Of a DNA stretch of 64,000 bases, positions 20,287 through 26,522 are shown one piece after another (position 1 is the first letter of the stretch; each line of letters opens with the position of its first letter). The stretch lies in NCBI GenBank assembly GCA_905221615.1, contig CAJNDT010001225.1, positions 372,001 to 436,000 on the forward strand. Reading direction: 5' to 3'. The DNA comes from Symbiodinium sp. CCMP2592 (lineage: Eukaryota > Sar > Dinophyceae > Suessiales > Symbiodiniaceae). Below the pieces are notes generated by a model that saw nothing but the letters and a program-made list of their open reading frames with translations, ran no database searches and had not been told where the DNA came from. The position numbers and the translations under genes were made by a program.

Positions 20287-21724
20287 TTAGGTCGAGCTGC
20301 GTTTGACGCCAGCAGTCCTCAGGGTGTGCATCCGTTTGACGGATAAAGGAGTCACCCGCTTTCTCCGGTCGTCCGTTTTCTTTGTTGAACGGACGACCGG
20401 CTTCTTCTTGACTGCACGCCTGACGACTCTAGCTTCCACAAGTCTGGCCTTTGCCAGAGGAAGTTCGGCTTTGCACTGTGTGCCGGCGGTCTGTTGCTCA
20501 GCACACCATGCACTCCATTCTTCACTGCTCCATATGGACTCATGCAGAGCGCGACCAAGGAGCATACTTGCGCTCACTACATGAGACATCGGAAATTGAG
20601 TAGCTAGATAATGTTGCAGTGTCTTGATGTACAAAAAATACTGCAACTTTAATGCCAATGTTGACCTGTGCAGTACGTTGGTGGTTCTGGTCCATGAATT
20701 AATTTCAGCGTGCAGGGCTTCATTGCTCGACGTACCACTCGGCAAGAACCAAAGGTACGACGCTCTCATGGAGTGGCGGACCCGAATGTTGTTCATGAGC
20801 CACTCCACCCGATCCGGCGCACAGGCTGCCCAGAGTATCTTGTTGATGTCCTTGTTGGGGCCTGCAGCTTTGCGCGTAACCTCCACGACTTTGTACCGGC
20901 GACACAATGCAGCCACTGCTTTAATGAAATCAAGACGGCGCATGAAGGGCTTCTCCGGATTCAGATTATCCAATACGCGAGCAGTCTCGCTGTCGGACAT
21001 GGAACAGTCGAGGATCATGGCCCTGATTCTGGTCTCCTCGTCACCGAGGGGCCTCGCCATGCTACCGTCATAAAGCTGCTGCCAGTAGTCTTTGTCTATA
21101 GCAGTGTCCACGGCAATGCATTCATTTCCGGAGAATACGGCGGAGTTGTTTCGAACCGGGATTCTTCTTGTTCCAGAACCCGTACTCATACACTATTGCC
21201 AAGTGAATAGGGTCCAGCATGAGGGACTTCAGGTTTTGGCAAATTCCCTTGAGTTCGGCAAGTAACTTTTCTGAAGGACTGTCAGTGCCAACATGATGCA
21301 CCGAGTTCAACTGCTCCACAGAGAAATTCTGTCGCATAGCCTCGACTATCTGTTCGGAGGACTCGCTCTGGACAAAGTGCATCATGAGGACCGCCCCTGT
21401 TCTACCGCGAATCGTTAGTAACCGTCTCCATGCCACTGTATCGTCGAAGGGAGCCTCGTCTCGCACCTGTTTGGGTGCACGATAGGAAGCTTGTCCCATG
21501 ACTTTCATGCAGAGTTTGAGAGTAGCATCCATACTAATATAATGCCACTCATCGCCGCACACCAGGAATTCCGTCATCTTCTCCATTTTACTCCGGAAAG
21601 CTGTTGAGCTGGCAATGTCCTCCAACATAGGCATCCACTGTGGAACCCTGCTGGGGAGAAGAGTGGACAGTAAGCTTCCCGCTTGCATGGCCGCCATGTG
21701 ACACCGAGTGGCCAGAGTTCTGAC
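20287..21724 (-). CDS. DDE-type transposase domain of the mobile element (frameshifted)
   Basis: RNase H-fold transposase candidate. The first frame (21724-21122) holds YISMDATLK (first Asp), VGTDSPSEKLL and MLDPIHLAIVYEYG. Near 21125-21130 the frame must shift by one to continue into the second frame (to the stop TAA at 20287), which holds GTSSNEALHAEINSW with the likely catalytic Glu. The basic C-terminus (KKKPVVRSTKKTDDRRKR) suggests DNA binding or nuclear targeting. The spacing and NE motif are reminiscent of MULE-like or related DDE families, but the exact family is not settled. As read, the gene is broken, so this copy may be dead unless the shift is a sequence error. Confidence 0.55.
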
Positions 21725-22264
21725 CTTAGCATGACACTATCAGAGTATGAGATATATACACGCAAAACATCATACGGTACATCATACGGTACATGGCACA
21801 GACACACACACACACACACACACACACACACACACACACACACACACACACACACACACACACACACACACACACACACACACACACACACACACACACA
21901 CACACACACACACACACACACACACACACACCCCCACACACACACACACACACACACACACACACACACACACACACACACACACACACACACACACACA
22001 CACACACACACACACACACACACACACACACACACACACACACACACACACACACACACACACCCCACACACACACACCCCACACACACACACACACACA
22101 CCCCACACACACACACACACCCCACACACACACACACACACACACCCACACACACACACACACACACACACACACACACACACACACACACACACACACA
22201 CACACACACACACACACACACACACACACACACACACACATAGTATGACGTTTACGCCAGGCAC
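21725..22264 (-). other. Intron holding a long (CA)n microsatellite
   Basis: 540-bp GT-AG intron within the mobile-element gene. Donor CCCAG|GTGCC at 22265/22264 and acceptor GCTAAG|GTC at 21725/21724. Joining gives GHAQ followed by VRTLATRCHMAAMQ in one frame. About 21802-22240 is nearly pure (CA)n on the plus strand. Confidence 0.6.
21802..22240. repeat. (CA)n microsatellite, about 440 bp
   Basis: Near-pure CA dinucleotides with a few CCC interruptions, inside the transposon intron 21725-22264. Confidence 0.98.
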
Positions 22265-24701: not shown

Positions 24702-25991
24702 TCAGTAATCCTCGATCAGCTGGTAGCAATCATCTTTGCTGTAATCCCGCTCGAAGGCCCACTGTAAACGTAGACCAGCGATGGAGGCTTGCGACGTGGT
24801 CAGAAATTTATTCAAACTCGGATCAGCCTCGAAGATGCCATCTTTTTCATGATACTCGTAATTCGCGAGAAATTTCTTGTGAATGAACCGTGCCTTCGCT
24901 TTCAAGACCAGAGACCGCCGGAATATGGAGTTGAAAGTGCTGTTACCCACACCAAGGAATTTCATTATCCGATTGAGCTCCAGTCGAACCCATCCAATAG
25001 TGTGGAACATCTTGGTGCTGTAATCGTACGGCTTTCGTCCCATGATCCCATCAGCTGAGATTGTCTTCTTGTAGAGGTCAATGTGAAGCTTCTTACTGCT
25101 TTCAGGAGCCTCCTGACCGGTCATGATGAAAGCTTTTGCAAAGGTTTCGACTTGCTTGCGAAGCTCCTCGTCCAGGTACCAGATGTTTGGATCAAAGTAC
25201 ACATGATTGTGTTTGTACATTTCTGATAGATGCAGTGAGTACAGGCTTTGTCCAACACCGCCAGGAGATATCCCTATAAAACATCGGTCCACGTTGAGTC
25301 CTCGCTTTGCAATGGCAATGGCAGCCTGGCAGCATCGGAAAACGTCCACGTTACACCAGAAGGTACAGGCATAGAATTTCTGCAAACGCTCCATGTTCAC
25401 TTGTAGAACAGGATCCAGCAATGGATGTGGGATCTTGATGTAACAGTTGTTTTGAGGCCCCTTTTTAACCACATCTAGCGGATTTCCAGACGAAGGGGAG
25501 TCATACACAAAGCATAGGTCGTCGTAGCAGACTGACGCCGACCTCTGGTCCTCCGTCTCGCACCACTCTACCAACAAAGAAACCAATCTGGTCTGCATCA
25601 GTTCCATGCGAACACTGCAGGACAACTTCCAAGACTTTTCGGCTAGATCAAGGGTCCATGACTCTGCCGTGTCAGCTGCGCCTCCGTCCCCATGTCCAGC
25701 GGGATTGACTTCCTCATTGCCTGGACGATCATCCTCCGACATATCCAGTCTTTGCGGATAAGCAGGTTGCTGGAGTCGTCGGGTCGTGGCGTCACGACAC
25801 GCATCCAAGAAAGCTTGCTCGGTCTGGAAGGATTGCAGGTCGGACACGATAGCTGCTGCGACCGCCTCCGTCTTACGCTGAAGTTGAGGTCGCATGCGTC
25901 GAAACATACCTTCCAAACATGAGATCTGCAGAATATTCGCTGAGAGTCGTGCCGACATTGAAGGCTGGTCAGAAATAGTGAAACAGTTCAT
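24702..25991 (-). CDS. SF3/D5-like helicase of the mobile element
   Basis: 429 codons. The N-terminal part is acidic and low in motifs. The C-terminal half reads FIGISPGGVGQSLYSLHL, which fits a P-loop (GGVGxS) except that the usual Lys is Gln. FDPNIWYLDEEL may be the Walker B region, and ADGIMGRKPYDYSTKM...IGWVRLE follows as a conserved-looking block. I read it as a superfamily-3/D5-type replicative helicase domain, common beside mobile-element polymerases. The first 28 residues overlap the nuclease gene, so translation may start at the internal Met at 25907. The frame stops at 24702, only 300 bp before the polymerase frame begins; linker coding lies in another frame between them. Confidence 0.6.
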   Translation of the reverse strand: MNCFTISDQPSMSARLSANILQISCLEGMFRRMRPQLQRKTEAVAAAIVSDLQSFQTEQAFLDACRDATTRRLQQPAYPQRLDMSEDDRPGNEEVNPAGHGDGGAADTAESWTLDLAEKSWKLSCSVRMELMQTRLVSLLVEWCETEDQRSASVCYDDLCFVYDSPSSGNPLDVVKKGPQNNCYIKIPHPLLDPVLQVNMERLQKFYACTFWCNVDVFRCCQAAIAIAKRGLNVDRCFIGISPGGVGQSLYSLHLSEMYKHNHVYFDPNIWYLDEELRKQVETFAKAFIMTGQEAPESSKKLHIDLYKKTISADGIMGRKPYDYSTKMFHTIGWVRLELNRIMKFLGVGNSTFNSIFRRSLVLKAKARFIHKKFLANYEYHEKDGIFEADPSLNKFLTTSQASIAGLRLQWAFERDYSKDDCYQLIEDY

Positions 25992-26522
25992 GCTGCACGA
26001 TGATGAAATTCAGCTACTCTGGGACAACAAAAAAATGAGGCCGCCAATTCTGGAACGTGGATGCATGCTATGCTGGAGCATCTGTTCAATGGATATCAGG
26101 TTAGACCAGGTGCAATGAAGGGTGAGCTCGATGCTGCAATTGCATTAGTCTGCGAAATGGGTGATGTCGAGGTTTATCGTACGGAGTGGTGCATATACGC
26201 TTCACGGGAAGATGTTGCCGGCTCCATTGATTTGGTACTGAAATCTAGTCAGGATGACGCATTCTACCTCGTCGACTGGAAACGCAGCGAAAAGCTGCGG
26301 GAGAAATACGTTGGTTATGGCAAGTTCATGAAACCGCCTCTGCATGATCTTGAGGATTGTCAAGGCTGTCATTATAGAGTGCAGCTCAACATTTATATAT
26401 GGATCCTCCACGTTTTTAGAGTTTCCGAAAAGTATGCGTTGGTTACAGGATTTAAGGCTTCGGGCTCAGGGTTTTATGCGCTTAAGAAGGACTTTGGGGT
26501 CTTGCAGTGGTTGAAGGTTTAG
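25894..26522 (+). CDS. PD-(D/E)XK nuclease of the mobile element (one frame break)
   Basis: Predicted Mg-dependent DNA nuclease. The first frame (25894 onward) ends ...LLWDNKK at a run of seven A (about 26030-26036). The second frame then gives GTWMHAMLEHLFNGY, ...AGSIDLV... and YLVDWKRS, followed by HYRVQLNIYIWIL. These fit the nuclease core: an acidic helix residue, the Asp of GSID, and D-x-K in DWKRS, as in RecB/lambda-exonuclease-type folds. One extra A (or two fewer) in the homopolymer would restore the frame, so this is either an inactivating slip or an assembly error. It is divergent from the helicase and overlaps its upstream end. Such nucleases process DNA ends during replication or recombination. 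Confidence 0.7.

Follow-up and report, generated by a model that had tools for sequence, protein, structure and literature searches.

Here we describe a block of linked coding regions in a 64,000-nucleotide stretch of the dinoflagellate Symbiodinium sp. CCMP2592 (contig CAJNDT010001225.1, positions 372,001 to 436,000 of the forward strand; referred to below as the window, with positions counted from its first base). Its parts resemble a nuclease, an ATPase, a TV-Pol-type polymerase, a C2H2 zinc finger and a transposase. A preliminary description of the sequence had placed them at 20287..26522 and proposed that together they form one large transposon able to copy and insert its own DNA. The motifs named in that description are all present where it placed them, and homologous blocks recur genome-wide in long open frames, beyond what chance would produce. 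The window block is a worn-out, rearranged member of this repeated element family, and we compare it below mainly with two long-frame copies, L062 (contig C901) and L064 (contig C1024).

On the minus strand, a P-loop ATPase-like part (24702..25916), carrying SPGGVGQS (25245-25268), TGQEAPE and KKTISADGIMGRK, runs into a stop at 24702-24704 and is followed by the polymerase, linker and finger part of a long frame (22265..24670; 54% identical to L062 residues 956-1755), itself interrupted by a stop at 24428-24430. Across both, window positions 25916-24423 match L062 residues 518-1036 at 62%, the aligner having read through stops. This second part includes a TV-Pol-like polymerase domain (23300..24100) with RRY, a DLD motif A, GK..NG and an FDG motif C (VDLDIHN at 23930-23950, TVFNGG at 23753-23770, LHFDG at 23501-23515), and a C2H2 zinc finger (22590..22663, starting at 22663; PF13894 E 0.01, under the curated cut-off). 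Beyond it lies a probable intron (21737..22264, minus strand, borders tentative) that is expanded by a CA repeat occupying 21797-22240, so the block is not repeat-free as had been claimed; a matching gap is present in L062, L064 and the further copy L057, between an HAQ or HAQ-like end and CAG/GTGCG. The transposase-like gene follows in two frames that join near 21123: an N-terminal piece (21122..21736; 71% identical to L062 over 21727-21125) with SMDAT (SMDATLK at 21515-21535), TDSPS and LDPIHL, and a C-terminal piece (20287..21192; 66% identical to L062 over 21123-20290) with SNEALHAE (20704-20727). A 3' non-coding tail (18902..20286, minus strand), in which only the last ~90 bases resemble those of the C901 copy, leads to a 3' terminal signature (18902..18926, minus strand; one mismatch to a 25-base pattern). 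The element thus terminates at about 18902, outside the bounds first proposed for it, and the adjoining flank opens with a TA run.

The PD-(D/E)XK exonuclease-like domain lies on the plus strand (25894..26417; PHROG 298 E 6.7e-11), in two frames that join near 26030, with SGTWMHA at 26049-26069 and VDWKRS at 26271-26288. It abuts the ATPase block (25916 downwards) back to back, and the some 260 residues that separate the matched nuclease and ATPase parts in L062 are absent between the two. The preliminary description had taken this for a divergent gene, but among the 38 polymerase loci for which a nuclease is listed, the window copy is alone in having it on the opposite strand. The divergent layout is hence best read as damage to this one copy, like its two stops and its frame changes near 24.67, 21.12 and 26.03 kb, and the orientation of the nuclease would reflect an inversion accompanied by loss.

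Linked modules and long-frame copies across the genome

The genome searched, that of the window itself, comprised 1,098,105,373 bases in 5383 contigs. It contained at least 149 matches to the N-terminal transposase piece and at least 68 to the polymerase part, together with at least 104 and at least 150 matches to the ATPase-like part and nuclease of L062, respectively. The 68 polymerase matches collapse to 62 loci, and linkage was counted from the matches on the relevant contigs (66 of 149 for transposase, 68 of 104 for the ATPase-like part and 39 of 150 for nuclease). All 62 loci had a transposase-like match 67-955 bases downstream of the polymerase and on its strand; copies with these domains in separate, unlinked genes, which would have spoken against a single element, were thus not encountered. 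An ATPase-domain match was located no more than 3 kb upstream in 55 of the 62, and a nuclease match, among those listed, within 14 kb upstream in 38. Of these 38 nuclease matches, 37 share the strand of the polymerase, 36 of them lying within 3.1 kb of it and one at 11 kb. These results bear out the proposal that the parts belong to one multi-copy element.

In 11 loci (C447, C901, C1299, C2557, C5338, C4612, C1024, C1265, C1755, C2635 and C596), the nuclease, ATPase-like and polymerase matches share a single stop-free frame length of 1757-1784 aa. Two of these frames were read whole, those of L062 (1767 aa) and L064 (1769 aa). Both have a C2H2 finger near the frame end (PF13894 E 0.0084 in L062 and 0.0037 in L064, under the curated cut-off), and in both a transposase-like frame comes next (487 aa in L062, 552 aa in L064). 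At the join, the first part ends in HAQ before GC (GT in the window) and the second opens at CAG/GTGCG (VRT), which probably represents a short intron. In three distant relatives (L084, L085 and L086), in which the finger is also recognizable by eye, polymerase, finger and transposase-like part form one unbroken frame. The suggestion that the element encodes a long spliced polyprotein therefore draws support from the fused frames of other copies and from the probable intron before the transposase part, but the window copy itself is not one open frame.

Comparison of L062 with L064 gave differences of 0.34, 0.23 and 0.61 at codon positions 1, 2 and 3 of the long frame, respectively, and the order was the same in the other five pairs tested. 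This is the pattern expected under constraint and indicates that the long frame is conserved at the protein level. A further frame with a cysteine cluster lies upstream (554 aa in L074, with parts of 407 aa in L064 and 591 aa in L062), for which the Pfam scan gave no family match above cut-off; this ~550-aa frame appears to contain a cysteine-rich, zinc-binding-like part. In L062, a 186-base ATPase-like piece is duplicated (96%) in the upstream frame (L062:636-821 and 4369-4554).

Predicted functions of the encoded parts

Viral references for the polymerase were taken from IMG/VR, where three loci (L003, L005 and L001) were picked by a TV-Pol motif and a fourth (L012) by their alignment. In L003 and L005, the TV-Pol is followed by a D5-type helicase part. 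Four of the eight IMG/VR loci with the motif (L002, L004, L007 and L008) proved to be unrelated frames and were discarded, and L006 duplicates L003. L003 and L006 are on one contig of 41736 bases, with the same TV-Pol and helicase frame near both ends in opposite orientation, like a large inverted terminal duplication. In profile-profile comparison, the window polymerase alone matched the three motif-picked viral TV-Pols at E 1.3e-5 (probability 80.5), and seven element copies matched all four at E 3.3e-10 (probability 96.7, 218 columns). Controls were far weaker, with a best E of 0.072 in 100 column shuffles, 0.6 for the reversed profile, and 0.14, 0.53 and 0.26 for the ATPase, nuclease and transposase parts of the element. 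The first D of motif A, the D of FDG and two adjacent R residues were invariant in all seven polymerase rows, so that the pair of active-site aspartates and the hairpin arginine expected of a TV-Pol are in place. RxxxK is described as the fingers motif of TV-Pols (PMC2579912); its K (in GK) was likewise invariant in the element, with no R four residues before it, and this R is also absent from the viral L003 and L005 but present in L001. As judged from these profiles and motifs, and in line with the preliminary description, the part is a TV-Pol-like primase/polymerase. A tblastn search with the window polymerase found no match in phages.

For the nuclease, PHROG 298 (exonuclease) was matched at E 1.6e-16 in L062 and 5.2e-18 in L064. 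The window domain matched Pfam PDDEXK_1 at E 0.00087, under the family cut-off, and the nuclease was the only window piece for which the family libraries returned an E below 0.001. GSID and DWKR were kept in all three rows, and by family profile and D/DxK motif the part is a predicted PD-(D/E)XK nuclease. Relatives of this nuclease with 33-38% identity occur in frames of ~365-500 aa on many more contigs without a listed polymerase (e.g., C1581, C2250, C2960 and C1970), where they perhaps belong to a second, high-copy family using the same nuclease.

The motif layout of the ATPase-like part (P-loop, E, K-x-IS-x-D, N) presumably resembles that of SF3 helicases, and the part had been named an SF3/D5-like helicase. 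We did not adopt this assignment, which is unproven: the Walker A lysine is replaced by Q, and profile comparisons with two viral D5-type helicases and nine SF3 sequences were not significant (E 0.57, 0.15 and 0.42), although P-loop, E and K were in register in the comparison at E 0.42. Pfam, NCBIfam and PDB gave no match to this part, PHROGs gave only weak and unrelated ones, and tblastn against phages gave a single match at E 0.9. Weak library matches were set aside, namely spanin phrog_2466 for the ATPase-like part (0.015), cas4 for the nuclease (0.093) and PF13894 for the window finger (0.01).

In the transposase-like part, the D of SxD(A/V)T, the D of D.PS and the E of SNE(A/S)LHxE were invariant, in that order, in all eight rows. 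Its putative DDE identity, which had been put forward previously, rests on these motifs and on the neighbouring modules, while a significant family match was not obtained. Plasmid searches by tblastn returned nothing for one transposase piece, two matches at E 0.8 for the other and three at E 4-9 for the L085 transposase. Scans with short exact patterns, which miss diverged relatives, revealed no transposase relative in GTDB genomes and, with the window polymerase, N-terminal transposase piece and ATPase-like part plus family alignments, no relative in IMG/VR. PDB searches with the element parts gave nothing credible; a staphylocoagulase match (E 0.021), whose alignment spans profile positions 162-291 in the interval from the second D to the E motif, was dismissed as a chance hit.

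The 3' end and its dispersal

Copies on C447/C901, C2557/C1299, C1024 and C1265 have a common terminal sequence, ending in AAAGGTATCGGGCTCATA, and then diverge. Past this end, C1024 departs from the others at once, and the others depart after a common TA run, which opens the flank in the window, C901/C447, C1265, C2557/C1299, C226 and C191 but not in C1024. C1024 and C1265, which agree at 99.8-99.9% over some 19 kb of sequence read, differ right after the 3' end. C447 and C2557 show 99.9% identity over 5067 bases, are identical over 2200 further bases on the 5' side, and match at points 15.3 kb apart; C1299 departs from the sequence of C447 and C2557 at L068:768. The alignment of genomic copies proposed in the preliminary description thus yielded intact frames and a common 3' end, but a 5' terminus and target duplications were not found in the stretches read. 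A break between C1024 and C1265 at C1024:33210 was rejected as a 5' end, as it sits at a TTACT/ACT microsatellite, and no inverted copy of the 3' end was present in the 5' stretches read.

A search for the 25-base 3' end pattern with up to two mismatches found 131 genome sites (58 + 73), the window site at 18902-18926 among them, compared with none (0 + 0) for the reversed control. We consider it highly improbable that segmental duplication of an immobile host gene family produced the copies: this would account for those contigs that are identical beyond the element, but not for the same 3' end amid different flanks or for its 131 occurrences. Sites were listed for 100 of the 131. For nine listed sites, a coding copy could be assigned on the same contig and strand; the distance to its transposase match is 2.0-7.0 kb in eight cases and 25 kb in one. 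Two others (L087 and L088) come from contigs for which no transposase match was listed; they show 98% mutual identity, resemble coding copies in their last ~90 bases and are probably non-autonomous elements. A large subgroup among the listed end sites has GGGCACATA in place of GGGCTCATA, which suggests a separate subfamily of non-autonomous elements. Overall, the element family is real, repeated and, apparently, recently mobile.

The extent of the matching copies also bears on whether the element could be an endogenous polinton-like virus (PLV), in which the same replication and transposition genes would be accompanied by capsid genes farther 5'. The ~19 kb common to C1024 and C1265 and the matches 15.3 kb apart in C447 and C2557 fit PLV size. 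Moreover, PLVs of the green alga Cymbomonas (19.5-29.5 kb) have pPolB or TVpol-type polymerases together with a tyrosine recombinase or DDE transposase, so the group includes TVpol and DDE elements, while the portion of that article available does not state that the two occur in one genome (PMC10675990). PLVs of a dinoflagellate with a helicase-PolB fusion have been reported as well (PMC12721341). Cymbomonas PLVs have capsid genes, however, and no capsid or packaging-ATPase match was detected among the frames scanned here with Pfam; in relatives of our element, moreover, polymerase and transposase part form one fusion, and here the polymerase comes after the ATPase part rather than before an SF3 helicase. 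We therefore regard a PLV origin as quite unlikely.

Two kinds of repeat in the window are also recorded here. A dispersed ~108-base repeat occurs just outside the 3' end (window 18197-18447) and again at 1764-1887, 52569-52682 and 57555-57668. In addition, two related tandem arrays with a 123-base unit occupy 27949-29457 and 36244-37335, the first of which encodes a repeated VVTWG...GGDSSAV protein that we take to be RCC1-like.

A candidate self-synthesising transposon family

Taken together, we consider it probable that the window block represents one member, decayed and with an internal inversion, of a family of large, self-synthesising-type DNA transposons. The proposed order on one strand is an upstream ~550-aa frame, then a frame with nuclease, P-loop ATPase-like part, TV-Pol-like polymerase and C2H2 finger, and finally the D-D-E transposase-like part, probably joined by splicing. 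The transposase part, with the finger, would bind, cut or join the element ends; the TV-Pol part would copy the element DNA; the ATPase-like part might load or move the polymerase part; and the nuclease could trim ends or remove primers. All the enzymatic steps, the splicing and the element's replication of its own DNA are what we infer from sequence; given a polymerase that was always found beside a transposase-like part, self-synthesis is the reading that suggests itself.

Several observations weigh against this reading. As neither a 5' end nor inverted repeats or a target duplication turned up in the stretches read, the case for mobility uses one end. The 3' end is also missing from the stretch read of C2635, a contig otherwise 98.6-99.2% identical to its sister C1024, where this end is present. 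In each of the seven members read (window, L062, L064, L057, C89, C4779 and C113), Walker A has Q instead of lysine, which, being common to the members, is a family trait and not decay; L085 has H in place of the second D of motif A. The best family match for the transposase part, PF01610 (DDE_Tnp_ISL3), was found in L085 only and was under cut-off (E 0.013). Among the polymerase loci, no ATPase match was listed for seven of 62 and no nuclease for 24 of 62. Lastly, C901 and C447 do not differ in either of the flanks read, and haplotypes or assembly duplicates may account for some of the near-identical contigs; hence, the 62 loci are not all independent events.

The catalytic doubts raised by the Walker A Q and the motif A change in L085 would also be compatible with a cut-and-paste transposon that carries polymerase and nuclease as passengers or regulators, with the polymerase dispensable for copying. 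For most of the 100 listed end sites, no coding match was listed on their contig side, as for non-autonomous elements of ordinary transposons. Passenger genes would nonetheless sit uneasily with the joint presence of polymerase and transposase in 62 of 62 loci, the protein-level conservation of the long frame, and the retention of the first D of motif A and of FDG in all seven rows, and we consider this explanation unlikely.

Among known systems, Polintons/Mavericks are likewise large self-synthesising eukaryotic elements, but their PolB and retroviral-type integrase were not seen here. Both pPolB and the RVE integrase are mentioned in PMC12721341. In bacteria, a subset of TV-Pol genes lies near resolvase, integrase or RNase H-fold transposase genes, for which replicative transposons have been proposed (Iyer, Abhiman, Aravind 2008, PMC2579912); these share the TV-Pol-like domain, whereas our element has one long multi-domain protein with the ATPase part before the polymerase. 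Sputnik-type virophages have TVpol N-terminal to a superfamily 3 helicase in one protein (PMC3671162), which is similar in combining TVpol with an ATPase/helicase part but differs in that the order here is reversed and a helicase is unproven. PMC9860276, as far as its available text goes, does not concern such elements and was set aside. Among the matches listed from open PMC titles and abstracts, the architecture was not described, a scope that covers neither subscription journals nor Repbase and does not establish absence from print. The case that this is an undescribed eukaryotic superfamily, in which nuclease, GQ-for-GK P-loop, TV-Pol, finger and DDE-like transposase would be one protein and many small non-autonomous followers with its 3' end would land in TA repeats, is in our judgement evenly balanced.

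If this interpretation is correct, a TV-Pol fused to a transposase-like part in a eukaryotic transposon would connect replicating viruses directly with cut-and-paste elements, the TV-Pol name itself being derived from transposons and viruses. Self-copying transposition would become testable domain by domain within one protein, and one source of the repeat load of this 1.1-Gb genome would have been identified.

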